43,232 nt of DNA from an uncultured Gammaproteobacteria bacterium (GTDB taxonomy: Bacteria; Pseudomonadota; Gammaproteobacteria; Pseudomonadales; Pseudohongiellaceae): NCBI GenBank assembly GCA_903853385.1, contig CAINTJ010000064.1, positions 1 through 43,232 of the forward strand. Direction: 5' to 3'. The first letter of the stretch is position 1. Each line of letters opens with the position of its first letter. The notes beneath the pieces were generated by a model, which saw only the letters and a list, made by a program, of their open reading frames with translations, searched no databases and had not been told where the DNA came from. This document shows, piece by piece, positions 4,553-11,274 of this stretch. The position numbers were made by a program, and so were the translations under genes.

Positions 4553-4963
4553 ATGGGTGAAGTTGCAATCAACTGGAAAGCGGTGCTGCTGGCGACGCTG
4601 GTGAGTTTTGTGCTGGGGGCTTTGTGGTATGGGCCCGTGTTCGGCAAACCGTGGATGCGCTCGCTGGGAATTGATCCAGGCGTCGCCCGACAGGCGCCCA
4701 GGATCGGCTTGCGGCGCATGCTCAGCATCAGTTTCATCCTGGAGTGGATCATGGCGATTTGCATGGCCTATTTCATCGGTGACAAAGCCGATGCCATGCA
4801 TGGTGCTCTATACGGCTTGCTTACCGGGCTGCCGTGGGTGGCATCCGCGATCGCGGTAAACTCCTTGTATGAGCAGAAGTCGGTGGCATATATTTTCATC
4901 ACAGGGGGTTATTGGACTGTGGTGTTTACGTTGATGGGGTTGATACTGGGGGCTTGGCATTAG
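4553..4963 (+). CDS. DUF1761 family small membrane protein
   Basis: A 136-residue protein with four hydrophobic segments (about residues 7-27, 52-74, 82-103 and 110-133). The ALWYGPVFGKPWM motif after the first segment is characteristic of DUF1761 proteins, whose function is unknown. A strong ribosome site (ACGGAGG) precedes the ATG. It is the last gene of the DUF350-DUF1190-ATP-grasp run and is followed by a repeat element and an intrinsic terminator. Confidence 0.75.
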   Translation: MGEVAINWKAVLLATLVSFVLGALWYGPVFGKPWMRSLGIDPGVARQAPRIGLRRMLSISFILEWIMAICMAYFIGDKADAMHGALYGLLTGLPWVASAIAVNSLYEQKSVAYIFITGGYWTVVFTLMGLILGAWH

Positions 4964-4992
4964 TCAACACCGCGTCGATTGCTTCAGCGCAA

Positions 4993-5103
4993 AGCCTTGG
5001 GCCGCCAGCTGCTTCTGAAACACGCCGTGAATACGTCCCTGTAGGCTTGCTTCGGCCATCCATGGCCTCAGACAGTTTCACAAGCAGTTGGCGGCCCAAG
5101 GCT
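4993..5103 (+). repeat. 111-bp palindromic repeat element, copy 1
   Basis: Outer arms of 29 nt (from AGCCTTGGGCCGCCAGC at the left to GCGGCCCAAGGCT at the right) pair with 27 Watson-Crick pairs, one G-T wobble and one mismatch. Inside are a small TACG/TGTA hairpin and the inner palindrome GGCCATCCATGGCC. Same length and layout as copies at 7671 and 10726. It sits between the convergent DUF1761 and TonB receptor genes. Confidence 0.9.
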
Positions 5104-5146
5104 CTCCAGTACAGCGCTTAATTCTTGCTAAATACAGCATAAACGC

Positions 5147-5176
5147 AAAAGGCGGCCTTGTGGGCCGCCTTTTTTT
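5147..5176 (+). terminator. Intrinsic terminator between convergent genes
   Basis: GGCGGCC / GGCCGCC stem with a 5-nt loop and a run of seven T on the plus strand; four T follow on the minus strand. It should end rightward transcripts from the DUF1761 side and perhaps also the leftward TonB receptor transcript. Confidence 0.85.
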
Positions 5177-5193
5177 GCTGACATATTAAGTGC

Positions 5194-7272
5194 CTAGAAA
5201 TCCCAATTCACCGTCAACCCGTAACGTCGCGGTTCACCCAACTGGGTGTAACGCTTGGACGTATAGCCGTCACGCGGATCGTTGCCGAAGTAGAAACCAT
5301 GCACGAAGTAGTCCTGGTTGGTCAGGTTGCGACCCCAAACAGTGACTTGCCACTTGTTGATGGTCCAGATCAGGCTGGCATTGAGCAGATCATAGGCGTT
5401 GGAACGTACATTGTGGCTGTCGGAGAAATAATAAGCGTCGCGCCCCTGCAGGTTTACATCCAGGCTCAGATTGTGTTGCAGCTGCAGCGTGCTGCCCACG
5501 CTGTATTGGTAGCGGGGTGCCTGCGCCTGTGCGCGGCCATCCAGATTTTCACCGGCCGAGTTGATGAAGTTCTTGTACTCGCTGTCGAGCAAGCCGAGTG
5601 AGCTGTACAGACGCACGCTGCTGGAGGCTGCAAAGTCCAGGCTCAGTTCCAGGCCGCGGTTGAAGCCGGCGGCGGCATTGCCGGTGAACATAAGGAACTC
5701 GGCGCTGCCGTCGGTGCGCATGCGGGTGGTGGAACTTTGGATCTGCACGTTTTTGCGATCCATGTAAAACACCGCGGCGCGCGTGTTCAGGCGCTGGTTG
5801 AACAAGCTGCCTTTGAAGCCGGCTTCATAGTTCAGCAGAGATTCGCTGCCGTATTCGCGCAAATCTGCATCCAGCGTGCCATCGGTGTTGAAACCGCCAT
5901 TCTTGTAGCCGCGCGAGAGACTGGCATACAACAGCTGGTTTTTGGCCAGTTGGTAGTTGAAGCTCACCTTGCCGCCGTACAAATTTTCACCCGGGGAAAA
6001 TCCGAGCTGGTTGGAATCGGCATATGTTGCCGAGTAGCGCTCGCTACGCACCCCCACATCCAGCGACCACGGCCCAGCCAGCATGGTAGTCGTGTCGGCA
6101 TAAACGGCATTGCGCTGCGTGCTGTGCTCGCTGTGGAATCGTCCTGGCAAATAGGTGTAAATGCGAGTGAGGCCGGCATCGACATGCAAGGTATAAACAC
6201 CCGCTACCCAGGAAGTGCGGCCGTTAAACAGTGCACCCTGGGGTGAGGACAGCAAGCGTAACTCGGCACTCTTGCTTTCATGATCGCGCAGATAGAGATC
6301 GGTAGACGCATAGCCGTCCGGATGAAAGCCGGCATAGGTCCAGTCTTCGTCGTAACCGTAATGCACATGACTGTTGGCATAGCTGGCCAGCGCTTCCACG
6401 GTAAAATCGGTGAAGGCGGTGCTGGTGGCTTGCACGCTGGCATAGCGTGAGCGCTGCATGTCGCGACCGGGCTGGTCGCTCAGGGTGTTGCGGCTGTTGT
6501 CGAGCGCGAAGGCATCATAGCCATTGTCGACATCAATAAAGCCGGCATGTAAATCCAGTTGCAGTGTTGGATCAAGCTGCCACTGCAACGCAGCGCGCAC
6601 GGTTTTTTCATCGCGCTCATTGGTGGGTTTGTGCAGGAAAGTATTCATGCCGAAACCATCACTGCGCACACTCTGCGCCGACAACCGGTAGTTAAGGCCG
6701 TCTTGCAGCGGGCCGGAGACATAGCCGGCCAGGCCGCGGCCCTGGTAGTTTTCGCCTTGCACCTGCATGCCGTATTGCTGGGTGGAGGCGGGCGCCTTGC
6801 TTTGCAGATTGATGAGGCCGGCCAAGGCGTTGGAGCCGTAGCGTGTGCCTTGCGGTCCTTGCAGGATTTCCACTTGCTGCATGTCATACAGCATGGCAGC
6901 AGCGCCGATGCCGGAAAAATCCACGCCGTCGATCAGCATGCCCACAGCTGAATTGAGCGGCTCTACAAATTCTTCGGTGTCGCCGATGCCGCGCAATTGC
7001 ACATAGCGGGCGCGGGAAGCGCCGGAAGTGAAGTTGACATTGGGCGCGTCCGCCAGCACATCTTCCAGATGCAGCGCATTTTTCTGCTGCATCAGTTTGC
7101 TGTCGAGCACGCTGATGCTGGCCGGGATATTGTCGAGCGTGGTCTGGCGAAAGTCGGCAGTGACGACAATTTCTTCGATGGTATTGGCTTTGGTTTGGGC
7201 TTGTGCAGCGCTGGCAGTGATGACTGCCAGTGCGAGCAGGGTGTAGCGAGGCAAGTGACTGTGTCGGTTCAT
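5194..7272 (-). CDS. TonB-dependent outer membrane receptor, predicted thiamine-related
   Basis: The 692-residue protein has a signal peptide ending around AQAQ (residue 26) and a TonB box-like EEIVVTA at residues 33-39. The plug domain runs to about residue 160, with the VEILQGPQGTRYGSNALAG segment. The rest is a 22-strand-type barrel ending in the outer-membrane signature NWDF. It would import a scarce ligand using TonB energy. A TPP riboswitch lies in its leader, so the ligand is probably thiamine, a phosphate ester or a precursor; that is inference from regulation. The start has a good ribosome site (GGAGAAAGG). No inner-membrane thiamine transporter is adjacent, so it would work with genes elsewhere. 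Confidence 0.9.
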   Translation of the reverse strand: MNRHSHLPRYTLLALAVITASAAQAQTKANTIEEIVVTADFRQTTLDNIPASISVLDSKLMQQKNALHLEDVLADAPNVNFTSGASRARYVQLRGIGDTEEFVEPLNSAVGMLIDGVDFSGIGAAAMLYDMQQVEILQGPQGTRYGSNALAGLINLQSKAPASTQQYGMQVQGENYQGRGLAGYVSGPLQDGLNYRLSAQSVRSDGFGMNTFLHKPTNERDEKTVRAALQWQLDPTLQLDLHAGFIDVDNGYDAFALDNSRNTLSDQPGRDMQRSRYASVQATSTAFTDFTVEALASYANSHVHYGYDEDWTYAGFHPDGYASTDLYLRDHESKSAELRLLSSPQGALFNGRTSWVAGVYTLHVDAGLTRIYTYLPGRFHSEHSTQRNAVYADTTTMLAGPWSLDVGVRSERYSATYADSNQLGFSPGENLYGGKVSFNYQLAKNQLLYASLSRGYKNGGFNTDGTLDADLREYGSESLLNYEAGFKGSLFNQRLNTRAAVFYMDRKNVQIQSSTTRMRTDGSAEFLMFTGNAAAGFNRGLELSLDFAASSSVRLYSSLGLLDSEYKNFINSAGENLDGRAQAQAPRYQYSVGSTLQLQHNLSLDVNLQGRDAYYFSDSHNVRSNAYDLLNASLIWTINKWQVTVWGRNLTNQDYFVHGFYFGNDPRDGYTSKRYTQLGEPRRYGLTVNWDF

Positions 7273-7414
7273 ACCTTTCTCCGATAACGACTACTGTTGA
7301 AGGTTGCAACAACACAGTTAGTACGACGGAGAAAACGCGAACCGCGTGCAGTGAAGTTGTGGCACCGGACTGCAAAAAAAACAGCCCGGAACAACAGAAA
7401 ACAGTGCAATCGGC

Positions 7415-7506
7415 AGTGCCTATTCCTACGCCAGTATTAACTGGTTCAGGTTCAAAGGGTTTGATCTCAGGACCTTTGCTTGCGCAAGGGTCCACCCCTT
7501 AGGACG
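7415..7506 (-). ncRNA. TPP riboswitch (THI element)
   Basis: Read on the minus strand, the leader has the THI-box order: AAGGGGTG, a P3-type arm (GGACCCTTGC / GCAAAGGTCC), CTGAGA, ACCCTTTGAACCTGA, the TTAATACTGGCGTAGGAA end, and a closing CCTA/TAGG P1 pair. These are the conserved parts that bind the pyrimidine and pyrophosphate of thiamine pyrophosphate. It lies about 145 bases upstream of the TonB receptor start, in the same orientation, and should lower that gene's expression when TPP is plentiful. The expression platform is not obvious; a hairpin with a T-rich loop lies between at 7365-7389. Confidence 0.92.
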
Positions 7507-7670
7507 GGCGGCACCTTAACAAATCCAGTCTGGACTGGCCATCATTTTTGCGTGGGTTTGATTGCTTCGAGCAATCAGTCTTCGCCATGAAGACGATGGG
7601 GGCACCCACAAGCACATCAGAATTGTGCGCGCGTTCATTACAACTAAATGAATTACGCACTGAACTCGAG

Positions 7671-7781
7671 AGCCTTGGGCCGCTAACTGCTGCTGAAACT
7701 GTCTGAGGCCATGGAGGGCCGAAGCAAGCCTACAGGGATGTATTCACGGCGTGTTTCAGTAGCAGTTAGCGGCCCAAGGCT
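7671..7781 (-). repeat. 111-bp palindromic repeat element, copy 2 (inverted)
   Basis: Same 111-bp element as at 4993 but in the opposite orientation, judged by its internal sequence. The 29-nt arms pair throughout apart from one wobble-type position. In element orientation it has an inner TACA-TCCC-TGTA hairpin, and the second inner palindrome is altered to GGCCCTCCATGGCC. It lies 37 bases downstream of the YjdM-like gene's stop codon. Confidence 0.9.
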
Positions 7782-7818
7782 GAGCACTGAGTACTGAACA
7801 CTGAACAGGAAATAACGC

Positions 7819-8160
7819 TCAAGCCTTTTTGACAAACTCGGATTTGAGTTTCATTGGACCGATGCCGTCGATCTTGCAGTCGATATTGTGATCACCTTCC
7901 ACCAGCCGGATGTTTTTGACGCGGGTGCCGACTTTGACAACGAGCGATGAGCCTTTCACCTTGAGATCCTTGATAACGCTGACGGTGTCACCATCCACCA
8001 GCACATTGCCGACACCGTCGCGCACAACTGCGGCCGCGTCGGCTGCGGGGGCGGCGTCGGTGGCCGACCACTCATGACTGCATTCGGGGCAGATCAGCAG
8101 TGCGTCATCTTCGTAGGTGAACGCGGACTTGCATTTAGGGCAGGCTGGCAAAGTGCTCAT
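7819..8160 (-). CDS. yjdM: PhnA/YjdM-type zinc-ribbon protein
   Basis: A 113-residue cytoplasmic protein. An N-terminal zinc ribbon has CPKC at residues 7-10 and CPEC at about 24-27. The C-terminal PhnA domain has [17 protein letters not shown] and the [20 protein letters not shown] segment. It is a full-length match to the YjdM (formerly PhnA) family. Despite the old name, the family is not a phosphonoacetate hydrolase and its physiological role is unsettled. The gene follows the VIT transporter gene in the same direction after 34 bases and may be cotranscribed with it. Confidence 0.88.
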
Positions 8161-8194
8161 GAGTATTCCTGGTCAGAAAATTTTGTGCAACGCA

Positions 8195-8893
8195 TCACAC
8201 TGCGGTGCCGAACAGTGATCCGATGCCCATGGTGGCGGCCATCGCGACGGCGCCCCACAGCGTAACGCGCAGCGAACCTTTGAGCAGGCCGGCGCCTCCT
8301 GCCTGGGCGGCGAGAGCGCCCAACAGTGCCAGTATCAGCAGGGAGCCGCCAGCCACCAGCCAATCAAGCGCGGCAAGTGGGGTGAAGGCGGCCAGCAGCA
8401 ACGGCAACATCGCGCCAATGGCAAAGGTCACGGCCGATGCCAGTGCCGCTTGCAGGGGACGTGCAGTGTGCAGTTCCGACAAGCCCAGTTCGTCGCGCGC
8501 ATGCGCACCGAGTGCATCGTGATCCATCAGCTGGGTGGCAACTGCGAAGGCGAGCTTTTCATCAAGGCCGCGCTTGATGTAGATGTTGGCAAGTTCGCGG
8601 TGTTCGAATTCGCGGTTCTCTTCCAGTTCGATTTTTTCCCGGTGCAGATCGGCGGCTTCGCTATCGGCCTGGGAGCTGACTGATACATATTCGCCGGCGG
8701 CCATCGACATGGCGCCAGCCACCAGCCCGGCCACACCTGCCAGCAGGATATCGGCACGGGCGGCATGTGCGGCAGCCACGCCCAGCACCAGACTGGCGGT
8801 AGAGACGATGCCATCATTGGCGCCGAGCACCGCAGCGCGCAACCAGCCGCTGCGTTGCGAGAAATGCAGTTCGTTCTTGTGTGCTGTGCCCAT
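8195..8893 (-). CDS. VIT1/CCC1 family Fe/Mn transporter
   Basis: An inner-membrane protein of 232 residues in the vacuolar-iron-transporter family, expected to move Fe2+ or Mn2+. It has the opening GWLRAAVLGANDGIVSTASL motif, the AGAMSMAAGEYVSVSSQ motif, then a cytoplasmic helical stretch rich in Glu (about residues 80-105, EKIELEEN) and a C-terminal group of three hydrophobic helices. I chose the ATG at 8893 because AAAGGA lies 5 bases upstream and the family begins near this point. A longer frame from 8959 adds 22 residues without a clear ribosome site. It is divergent from umuD across a gap of about 150 bases. Confidence 0.88.
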   Translation of the reverse strand: MGTAHKNELHFSQRSGWLRAAVLGANDGIVSTASLVLGVAAAHAARADILLAGVAGLVAGAMSMAAGEYVSVSSQADSEAADLHREKIELEENREFEHRELANIYIKRGLDEKLAFAVATQLMDHDALGAHARDELGLSELHTARPLQAALASAVTFAIGAMLPLLLAAFTPLAALDWLVAGGSLLILALLGALAAQAGGAGLLKGSLRVTLWGAVAMAATMGIGSLFGTAV

Positions 8894-9040
8894 GATGTCC
8901 TTTAAGTTGTTGACCTGCGGCAAGGAGGCCATTGTAAGCGTTTCCCGCGCGCGATCCATGCCTTAAATAGCCGCAAGTTTGCTTGCCTAGGGTCGGCTCC
9001 AAGGCGCAAAATTCCTGCCCCAGCTGCTGTCGTAAATGTC

Positions 9041-9472
9041 ATGAAAATTACCCTGCTTGCCCGCAAGTATCCGCCTCTGGCCCAGGTGCTGCCGCTCTAT
9101 GCTGCGCAGGTGCCGGCCGGTTTTCCCTCGCCGGCCGATGACTACATCGCCGACTGGCTGGATCTCAATGAGCATCTGATCAAACATCCGTCGGCCACGT
9201 TTTTTGCGCGCGCCGCCGGCACCTCGATGCTGGCCGCCGGCATTCTCGACAAGGCGCTCTTGATCGTGGACCGTTCGCTCAAACCCAGACAGGGCGATGT
9301 GGTGATCGCTGCGGTGAACGGCGAACTCACCTGCAAGATTCTCGACAAGCGCAAGCGACTATTGCGCGCGGCCAGTGACGGCTATCCGCCAATTTCGCTC
9401 GACGGTGAGCTGGATCTGCTGGTCCACGGGGTGGTGACGCATGTGGTGAACCAGCTATGTACGCACTCGTAG
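9041..9472 (+). CDS. umuD: UmuD, self-cleaving subunit of DNA polymerase V
   Basis: A 143-residue LexA-like (S24) protein. After RecA-stimulated self-cleavage UmuD' joins UmuC to form the translesion polymerase Pol V. The Ala26-Gly27 cleavage site is in VPAGFPSPADDY, the nucleophile Ser62 is in GTSM, and the general base Lys99 is in ELTCKIL; all match the family in order and spacing. Its 3' end overlaps the umuC start by 16 bases, indicating translational coupling. No canonical CTG-N10-CAG LexA box is visible in the gap to the divergent VIT gene, which is unusual for an SOS operon. Confidence 0.93.
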   Translation: MKITLLARKYPPLAQVLPLYAAQVPAGFPSPADDYIADWLDLNEHLIKHPSATFFARAAGTSMLAAGILDKALLIVDRSLKPRQGDVVIAAVNGELTCKILDKRKRLLRAASDGYPPISLDGELDLLVHGVVTHVVNQLCTHS

Positions 9473-10704
9473 ACTGCAACACCTTTTACGCTTCGTGCGA
9501 GCAGATCTTCCGGCCCGAGCTGGCCGGCCAGCCGGTGGTGGTGCTGTCCAACAATGACGGCTGCATCATTGCGCGCAACGCGGAAGCCAAGGCGCTGGCA
9601 GTGCCCGACCTGGTGCCGTACTTCCAGGTGAAAGCCTTGCTGGAGCGTCATCAGGTGCGGATTTTTTCCAGCAACTATGAGCTCTATGGCGATGTATCGG
9701 CGCGCGTGATGCAGCTGCTGGAACCGTTTGCCAGCGATATGGAAGTCTATTCCATCGACGAAGCATTTCTGCGGGTACACGCGGCTGATCATCATGCGCA
9801 CGCCAAGGCCATCAAGGATGAGCTGTGGCAAAGCGCACGCATGCCGGTGTGTGTGGGTGTCGCACCCACCAAAACGCTGGCCAAGCTGGCCAATCGTGCT
9901 GCCAAGAAGATCAAAAAACTGGGCGGTGTGTGCGTGCTCGACCATGCCGAAAAATGGCGCTGGCTGCTGGCGCGCATGAGTCCCAAGGATATCTGGGGCG
10001 TCGGCAGCCAGCTGACACTGCAGCTGCAGCAGCTCGGCATCCGCACCGCGCTGCAGCTGGCCGACAGCAACCCCAAAATGCTGCGCCACCAGTTCAGTGT
10101 GGTACTGGAGCGCACCATCCGCGAGCTCAATGGCGAAGCCTGTCTCGATCTGGAACTGGAACTGGCGCCACGCAAGGATATCGTTTGCACGCGCGCGTTC
10201 AGTTATAAAGTCAGTGAACTGGCGGAGCTGCAGCAGGCCATCAGCCTCTATGCCGCCAGAGCCTGCGAGAAGTTGCGCAAACAGAACGGCGTGGTGCGCC
10301 AGCTGTGGGTATATCTCGAACGCAACGATGCGCAGCTGGGCCTGGTGCAGCGCCAGCGCTGGATACAGTTGCCGTATTGCAGTGACGACACCCGCTTGAT
10401 TGCCCAGCATGCGGCCGCGGCTTTGCAGCAGTTGTTTGTGAGCGGGCTGCGCTATCGCAAATGCGGCATCGGTCTAGTGGATATCCGCACCCGCAAATTT
10501 GAGCAGCAGGATTTTTTCGCCGCACAGCAATCAGTGCAATCACAAGCGTTGATGCAGGTGCTGGATCGTATCAACCAGCGCTATGGCAAGCACACGCTCA
10601 CACTGGCCAATGCCGGCATCGCGCCACAGTGGGCTATGAAACGTGATTATCTGTCGCCACGCTACACCACGCGCTGGAATGAATTGCCGGTGGTGCGGTG
10701 TTGA
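9457..10704 (+). CDS. umuC: UmuC, catalytic subunit of DNA polymerase V
   Basis: A Y-family translesion DNA polymerase of 415 residues, close to the usual 420. The active site is intact: MYALVDCNTFYASCE with Asp6, and YSIDEAFL with Asp101 and Glu102. The PTKTLAKLANRAAKK and WGVGSQL (helix-hairpin-helix) segments follow, and the C-terminal DUF4113-like tail carries the family's RINQRYGKHTL and SPRYTTRWNELP signatures. It overlaps umuD, forming a standard umuDC operon. It copies past DNA lesions with low fidelity. A 111-bp repeat element lies 21 bases after its stop. Confidence 0.95.
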   Translation: MYALVDCNTFYASCEQIFRPELAGQPVVVLSNNDGCIIARNAEAKALAVPDLVPYFQVKALLERHQVRIFSSNYELYGDVSARVMQLLEPFASDMEVYSIDEAFLRVHAADHHAHAKAIKDELWQSARMPVCVGVAPTKTLAKLANRAAKKIKKLGGVCVLDHAEKWRWLLARMSPKDIWGVGSQLTLQLQQLGIRTALQLADSNPKMLRHQFSVVLERTIRELNGEACLDLELELAPRKDIVCTRAFSYKVSELAELQQAISLYAARACEKLRKQNGVVRQLWVYLERNDAQLGLVQRQRWIQLPYCSDDTRLIAQHAAAALQQLFVSGLRYRKCGIGLVDIRTRKFEQQDFFAAQQSVQSQALMQVLDRINQRYGKHTLTLANAGIAPQWAMKRDYLSPRYTTRWNELPVVRC

Positions 10705-10725
10705 GCTTGCTTTCGATCAGCGTAT

Positions 10726-10836
10726 AGCCTTGGGTCGCTAACTGCTTCGGAAACACGCCGTGAACCCATCCATGGGGGCTCGCTTCGGCCATCCATGGCC
10801 TCAGACGGTTTCCGAAGCAGTTAGCGACCCAAGGCT
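10726..10836 (+). repeat. 111-bp palindromic repeat element, copy 3
   Basis: Same orientation and length as copy 1. Its 29-nt arms (left AGCCTTGGGTCGCTAACTGC to the matching right GCGACCCAAGGCT) are perfectly complementary. Inside are CCCAT-CC-ATGGG and GGCCATCCATGGCC hairpins. It lies between the convergent umuC and ppnP genes. Confidence 0.92.
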
Positions 10837-10877
10837 GTGCACAGATTCACAGCCATCTGAAATAGGCGACAAAAATA

Positions 10878-11189
10878 TTACAAATAAGAACAGCAGTAGT
10901 CAGTCAGCTGGGTGACTTTCAGTTTGAAGCTGGCATTGGCCGGCACTGAAAAGCTCATGCCGCCGCAGAAATGCTGCCAATCGTTGTTGCCGGGCAACAA
11001 TACATCGAGTTCGCCGGCGAGGATTTCCATGATCTCGGGCTGGGCAGTGCCGAATTCGAACTCGCCCGGCTGCATCAAGCCCAGCGTTTTCTTGCTGCCA
11101 TCATTGAACAACACGGTGCGGCTGGCGACTTTGCCGTCGAAGTAAACGTTGGCAGCCTTGATGACGGTGACATTATCGAACTGGGTCAT
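10878..11189 (-). CDS. ppnP: Pyrimidine/purine nucleoside phosphorylase (PpnP/YaiE)
   Basis: A small cupin-fold enzyme (103 residues, usual length about 94-105) that phosphorolyses nucleosides to base plus ribose 1-phosphate in the cytoplasm. The family pattern [20 protein letters not shown], then [24 protein letters not shown] and FSVPANASF is clear (the whole protein matches DUF1255). It sits alone, convergent with umuC across a repeat element and upstream of the antiporter gene in the opposite reading order. The two Cys in the C-terminal DYCCSYL are normal for many family members. Confidence 0.93.
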
Positions 11190-11274
11190 GGGATTCCTTC
11201 AGTGAGTGAGTTGAAACAGGCGCGCAAGATAGCGAGTAGGGCTGGCTTGGGTCAATCCGGGGAGGTGCACTGAC

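Follow-up and report, generated by a model that had tools for sequence, protein, structure and literature searches.

Structured repeats of a Pseudohongiellaceae contig belong to a dispersed TwoAYGGAY RNA family with a candidate CsrA-binding strand

The window analysed here is a 43,232-nucleotide stretch of a contig from an uncultured member of the Pseudohongiellaceae (Gammaproteobacteria), in which three copies of a structured repeat lie at 4993-5103 (copy 1), 7671-7781 (copy 2) and 10726-10836 (copy 3). Each is exactly 111 bp long, as described in an initial annotation of the same DNA. The strand that carries GGA in its hairpin loops, hereafter the GGA strand, is the reverse strand in copies 1 and 3 and the forward strand in copy 2. 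A covariance model (R1) built from 21 copies of the host genome scores the three at 162.6, 158.8 and 154.6 bits, respectively. Two long outer arms enclose two short hairpins, P1 and P2, which on the GGA strand are UACAGGGACGUA (P1, 5032-5043) and GGCCAUGGAUGGCC (P2, 5054-5067) in copy 1, UACAGGGAUGUA (P1, 7731-7742) and GGCCAUGGAGGGCC (P2, 7707-7720) in copy 2, and CCCAUGGAUGGG (P1, 10765-10776) and again GGCCAUGGAUGGCC (P2, 10787-10800) in copy 3. The compensatory changes first noted between the copies are confirmed, both at arm positions 10, 14 and 24 (C-G/T-A, C-G/T-A and T-A/G-C) and in the first inner hairpin (TACG/TGTA, TACA/TGTA and CCCAT/ATGGG). The second inner palindrome, annotated as kept, is so overall but not identically in copy 2 (GGCCCTCCATGGCC, one mismatch), and pairing in the arms is imperfect at a few positions, such as the C-C at pair 23 of copy 1. 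The element extends past the 111 bp, with TTCAGYGCA directly before and CTCNAGTNCAGTGCGTAATTC directly after it in many copies; around copy 1 we located the motifs TTCAGCGCAA on the left (4983-4992) and CTCCAGTACAGCGCTTAATTC on the right (5104-5124).

Copies 1 and 2, inverted relative to each other, flank a 692-aa ORF (5194-7272, reverse strand) and a TPP riboswitch upstream of it (7406-7509, reverse strand, 67.8 bits). The ORF is matched in the congeners G009, G003, G004 and G008, whereas in G001 just 28 bp separate the matches to the flanking genes; riboswitch and ORF have therefore probably been lost from G001. At 5147-5173, separating copy 1 from the ORF's 3′ end (5194), inspection by eye shows a strong hairpin of the terminator type followed by a T run; the sigma-70 scan did not list it. 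That scan, run over 4900-11000, gave 2 sites against 2.1 expected; one (7516-7545) lies on the GGA strand, 5′ of copy 2.

The host genome (G000, 2.95 Mb in 143 contigs) contains 22 copies in total. Copy 1 as a query returned 27 rows at 21 distinct places, the other 6 being single arms read on the opposite strand, and R1 added one further copy at 66 bits, with 15 of its 37 rows being opposite-strand readings of the same palindromes. In 12 of the 21, BLAST aligns copy 1 over almost the full element; elsewhere the centre is kept between arms of other sequence, mostly still complementary. R1 matches 21 of 37 genomes, the host included.

The window copies fold far beyond shuffled sequences (z -7.9 to -11.3; in all four folds, none of 200 shuffles did as well). 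Across 21 genome copies, 91.9% of cells are paired. Column shuffles reduce this to 73.1%, and sliding the structure along the alignment to 28-48%. Both sides have changed in 28 of the 37 pairs and in 137 cells, and covariation reaches 0.51, compared with 0.16 in shuffles (0 of 500 as high) and 0.05-0.09 in slid versions, a gain over the latter that is partly built in because the structure was derived from copy 1. The long arms vary widely among copies while keeping their complementarity, including copies at one site common to two species.

Nine host copies share their site with a copy in the congeners G001 or G005, eight by both flanks and one (L020) by one flank and the element; the loci compared were mostly fetched for holding an element, so the frequency of site sharing is not estimable from them. 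From ten site pairs tried, L018/L208 was dropped (wrong element) and two pairs with L021 were uncountable (motif missing). The seven orthologous comparisons left contain 196 arm pairs, of which 139 are the same, 25 have switched from one Watson-Crick type to another, 30 have changed on one side (13 of these in the decayed pair L020/L227) and 2 otherwise. The arms thus co-evolve in place.

The mismatches within the arms distinguish the two strands. In the orientation first annotated, 118 copies from named genomes, from a search that took in 99 of 117 loci, show 2831 Watson-Crick, 135 A-C, 24 G-T and 123 other arm pairs; per locus (n = 85), A-C exceeds G-T in 55, is rarer in 4 and ties in 26. 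At arm positions 7-28, 149 copies give 126 A-C against 15 G-T, with 49 of 198 copies left out of this alignment (inner-edge motifs or flank missing). Split by group, the ratios are 15:2, 27:1, 75:10 and, for other relatives, 9:2, although the labels are rough and L261-L289, from several congeners including G001, are counted with the last. By copy, A-C is in excess in 74 and G-T in 7, with 68 ties. The excess is similar for either direction of the upstream gene (71:11 and 37:2) or the downstream gene (50:6 and 56:7), which argues against mutation bias from neighbouring transcription, and it is confined to the stem, since positions 29-60, mostly past it, give 30 A-C against 42 G-T. A-C on the strand first annotated is G-U on the other; therefore the GGA strand is the folded one. 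An unrestricted count over the whole hairpin, whose alignment ran into the core and far flanks, gave 202 A-C against 97 G-T, with a weak excess in other relatives (22 against 18). G-T on the strand first annotated occupies two loop-edge columns (45 and 19 cells), which in the hexaloop reading are the unpaired loop positions A and Y. The GGA strand also folds better in 19 of the 21 host copies and 97 of the 118 others.

Judged from sequence comparison, the fold of the GGA strand is under selection, arm mismatches being G-U there at five to eight times the rate seen on its complement; p-values overstate this, the copies within one genome being related. Selection on a folded strand, suggested at the outset, is thus borne out by both covariation and mismatch asymmetry, but the strand as first written is the wrong one for an RNA, wobble pairs and loop motifs favouring its reverse complement.

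On that reverse complement the element is homologous to Rfam RF01731, TwoAYGGAY, and the initial impression of a sequence different from known elements is not supported. At gathering scores, Rfam returned only the TPP riboswitch in the window and no TwoAYGGAY. An E-value search placed RF01731 on the reverse (GGA) strand of copy 3 at 38.7 bits and on another host copy at 40.5 bits, under the curated cut-off of 43 bits. No host copy reached that cut-off among the 20 of 21 loci searched, the other 18 going unreported at E up to 1; neither copy 1 nor copy 2 is reported. RF01731 exceeds its cut-off nine times, in 7 of the 37 genomes, and in 0 of 14 control genomes. At 19 of 20 RF01731 loci, R1 gives a match at the same position in the reverse orientation, one of these at only 26 bits; two of the 19 also have a weaker same-strand R1 match. 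The homology is firm although the host copies score under the cut-off, because copies in relatives pass it and R1 coincides at 19 of 20 loci. The P2 loop reads AUGGAU in 19 of the 21 host copies and the P1 loop A-N-GGA-Y in 18, with strict AYGGAY in only 6, so the family's two AYGGAY hairpins are present in architecture and only partly to the letter. At E 0.001, RF01731 matches 10 of 37 genomes and R1 21, R1 being favoured by its origin in the host; the comparison suggests that the Rfam model misses copies.

A CsrA role (sequestration) has been proposed for TwoAYGGAY from the family model, according to the excerpted text of PMC4333381. The excerpted texts of several papers naming TwoAYGGAY contain no statement that it is a high-copy dispersed repeat. 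The titles listed in a literature search were unrelated, and those listed for CsrA with repeats comprised one small-RNA review. What is novel here is the dispersal of the TwoAYGGAY RNA in high copy number across many Gammaproteobacteria, its presence varying by species, together with the strand test, the free loop base and the retained spacing; the CsrA idea itself was already published.

GGA is present in both hairpins of all 21 host copies. In the named genomes, the three P2 positions of GGA are kept in 116/116, 116/116 and 115/115 copies, the preceding A in 110/112 and the closing C-G pair in 108/111, while any of the four bases can occupy the loop N (its complement is A in 56, C in 38, T in 7 and G in 2) and the stem pairs below the closing pair include all four Watson-Crick types. 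The genome scan pattern left P2 free but partly fixed P1, so the invariance of P1 in these genomes is partly forced. In three host copies (L007, L011 and L018), P1 keeps GGA without matching CANGGAYG. The two GGA starts lie 23 nt apart, with 20 nt between the triplets, in 15 of the 21 host copies, or 16 with L020 read at its P1. Two CANGGAYG words occur in 83 of 118 other copies, 72 of these at 23 nt, against 0.06 copies expected from mononucleotide shuffles. In many copies ACCGTCTGA adjoins P2 on the GGA strand; within it, CCGTCTGA also occurs in the Neisseria DNA uptake sequence, probably by chance.

The CsrA/RsmA site is an ANGGAN hexaloop with the SELEX consensus RUACARGGAUGU, and one CsrA dimer can span two sites separated by 10-63 nt, best at more than 18 nt, in the excerpted text of PMC7652899; that of PMC4353343 gives the site as A/U-CANGGANG-U/A. 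The element has ANGGAN hairpin loops and two sites within this 10-63 nt range (PMC7652899). P1 of copy 2 contains the ACARGGAUGU of that consensus, found exactly in 2 of the 21 host copies and 18 of the 118 others. Against the fit, P2 can form more than four contiguous pairs, as only a minority of SELEX winners did (excerpt of PMC7652899). A single motif is not rare, WCANGGANGW occurring 8 times in the window, 2 of them inside copies, against 3.8 expected. By its sequence, the GGA strand of most copies fits the published site, with two A-N-GGA-Y loops closed by C-G and 20 nt apart. csrA itself is found in 35 of the 37 genomes, the host included, and in 30 of 30 good ones; the copy-rich G006 and G008, 88% and 81% complete, show none. 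Since csrA is equally present in genomes lacking the element, co-occurrence cannot discriminate.

In a draw of 184 genomes from the class, R1 matches 27, belonging to 26 of 165 genera; the filters here were stricter, and no more than 16 candidates were scored in any genome. Carriers among the matches listed from the pattern scan include Halopseudomonas, Stenotrophomonas, Amnimonas, Cellvibrio, Methylomonas, Ectothiorhodospira, Halioglobus and others. The Yersinia ruckeri match is weak (26.5 bits), and two contigs labelled as a Klebsiella pneumoniae MAG may, at a guess, be mis-binned. A Saccharophagus MAG (L087, 3079-3769) carries four tandem direct copies at a spacing of about 178 bp, unlike the inverted pairs found elsewhere.

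Such pairs are common in G001, where R1 gave 99 rows (no fewer than 12 of which read the second strand) and 8 contigs begin inside a copy, with a match from base 1 or 2. Many G001 copies form an inverted pair, A(+)B(-), linked by a palindromic joint, about 305 bp long and ending in TTCAGTGCA and TGCACTGAA. With one pair as BLAST query against selected G001 loci, 10 of 14 alignments reaching the B half span at least 280 bp, the query itself counted; the 13 non-query alignments are 76-93% identical with differing flanks. In the window, 7617-7665 aligns over 49 columns with the joint of the G001 locus L208, and 7571-7605 aligns over 35 columns as an outer-arm relic of a second (B) element, with 0 of 2000 shuffles scoring as high. 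To judge from these alignments, copy 2 retains the joint and one arm of a lost B element. G001 also carries an A-B pair of about 305 bp at a site where the window has only 16 bp (11258-11273), with the end motif GTGCACTGA. At the G001 loci L079, L205, L218 and L219, B elements have different, longer arms (e.g., AAGAGGGCTTCTCCCTGAAGATGGAGGGGAC), some lying inside another arm around GCGCCAGAGGC; subfamilies seem likely to have exchanged arms.

Presence of the element at a given site differs between congeners. Junctions matching the copy 1 site in G001, G009, G003 and G005 hold no R1 copy. In G005 an R1 match of 72.8 bits (L295, 3136-3288) lies next to the counterpart of copy 3's right flank, oriented the other way, which would speak against copy 3 being purely private. 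The empty-site comparison thus reveals presence and absence, but exact ends and duplications are unreadable because the junctions are rearranged or diverged. No target duplication was seen in the six pair loci printed, in line with the initial annotation, which had found no consistent one. Measured against classical MITEs, then, the pairs have inverted ends (TTCAGTGCA), show no duplication in these six loci, and occupy sites too diverged for exact ends to be read. Plasmid and phage collections gave no match to the element. The Y1 transposase (PF01797) was not found in G000, G001, G005 and G010, the congeners with most copies (draft genomes); it occurs in 21 of the 37 genomes, and the copy-rich G022, G026 and G028, outside the genus, have both. 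Another genome of the same order, G030, has 49 PF01797 matches, with many Y1 transposase fragments, a number of them at contig ends, and no R1 match. The early suggestion of an ERIC-like, possibly mobile structured repeat stands as to dispersal (22 copies; 21 of 37 genomes) and structure, and the element is still possibly mobile.

Simple ORF calls place 56 copies between convergent, 24 between divergent and 91 between tandem genes, among 171 copies with a gene on both sides; 25 of 198 were left out for short flanks and 2 more had no gene on one side. In the host, 16 of 21 copies follow a gene pointing at them, 12 of the 16 within 30 nt of its stop, with open-ended ORFs affecting the rows of negative distance. 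Within 150 nt, the upstream gene reads the non-GGA strand in 15 of 19 host copies, 24 of 38 in G001, 12 of 19 in other relatives and 41 of 72 in the named genomes. The orientation bias is clear only in this genus and is opposite to the RNA strand; read-through from the upstream gene would therefore usually give AUCCAU loops there rather than GGA. Gene context thus argues against a simple 3′-UTR role for the GGA strand. Of the RNA-level 3′ end element first suggested, the preference for gene 3′ ends stands, and the opposite orientation leaves the suggestion weak.

On balance, we consider that the repeats are probably dispersed copies of TwoAYGGAY (RF01731) whose GGA strand is selected, whose RNA is predicted to bind one CsrA dimer, and which have spread in a mobile-like manner. 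On the GGA strand, a long variable stem of about 29 pairs supports two short hairpins. Transcription of a copy on that strand could come by read-through or from a putative promoter, the stem would then present both hairpins, and one CsrA/RsmA dimer may bridge them. The 22 copies (44 sites) of this genome, and several times more in a congener, would form a dispersed CsrA-binding load, its copies either titrating CsrA as RNAs or offering it docking sites in the untranslated ends of mRNAs. Spread would proceed as single units or inverted A-B pairs by some putative mobilising process. We extend this only tentatively, as an idea we find doubtful, to a mobile repeat family that has carried an RNA module with two CsrA-binding sites into genomes across the Gammaproteobacteria, where some 20 to 80 evolving copies titrate or rewire the CsrA network in place of one or two CsrB/RsmZ-type RNAs.

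Much of this evidence could also be read as selfish, non-autonomous mobile DNA, in which a folded single-stranded DNA or RNA intermediate is recognised by a transposase or reverse transcriptase and the loops and wobble asymmetry serve mobility instead of CsrA. Many similar copies with different flanks, sites occupied or empty between species, inverted pairs bounded by TTCAGTGCA and TGCACTGAA, the eight G001 contigs that start within a copy and the scant orientation relative to genes in the named genomes would all follow, and G-T pairs are tolerated in folded single-stranded DNA too. We nonetheless rate it unlikely: a transposase site would not be expected to match the CsrA site in both loops while leaving N free and keeping the spacing, and sites common to species are retained with compensating arm changes. 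The six loci lacking duplications and the four copy-rich congeners in which Y1 transposase was not found also weigh against it, the latter tempered by G022, G026 and G028, which have some.

An mRNA 3′-end hairpin of the REP kind, blocking exonucleases or affecting translation, with arms kept for stem stability only, would account for the copies behind genes in the host and for the surplus of convergent over divergent settings. The sense strand there, however, is the A-C mismatch strand, wrong for an RNA stem; the orientation in the named genomes is only 41 against 31; and the conserved loops are left unexplained, which makes this account improbable. Still further down the scale, and in our view highly improbable, is complementarity maintained solely by templated palindrome correction at replication, without selection. 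It fits the commonness of double changes beside one-sided G-T changes (the 137 cells, and 25 double against 30 single among the orthologous arm pairs), but such a process is strand-blind and is already disfavoured by the stem asymmetry of 126 A-C to 15 G-T, and the inner loops, far from the arms, are conserved.

If CsrA does bind the element, mobile repeats would supply CsrA sites and bring variation into a global regulon. For the orphan motif RF01731, these results add strand-specific sequence support for CsrA as a candidate partner, together with an outer stem under selection and a dispersed repeat in place of a single-locus RNA. Like TwoAYGGAY as described, the element has an outer stem and two inner hairpins with AYGGAY-type loops on the same strand; it differs in that the host copies fall below the gathering score, loop position 2 is any base and P1 is often AGGGAY, and in being high-copy and dispersed, often as inverted pairs in G001. 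ERIC, NEMIS/Correia and similar elements are likewise dispersed, palindromic, intergenic, non-coding and about 100-150 bp long, whereas the present element conserves its core loops and not its ends, and its arms vary freely. REP/BIME sequences with RAYT resemble it as scattered hairpins that lie close to the 3′ ends of genes, alone or as inverted pairs, but their unit is about three times shorter, and no Y1 (RAYT) transposase accompanies the element in the draft genomes of the four congeners richest in copies. Searches with RF00166 and RF00195 gave no match over cut-off in the 37 genomes and matches below it in 2 and 6 genomes, respectively. With the CsrA antagonist RNAs of the CsrB/RsmY/RsmZ type the element shares GGA hairpin loops that fit the CsrA site; it differs from them in having only two sites per RNA, many dispersed copies and a long outer stem.
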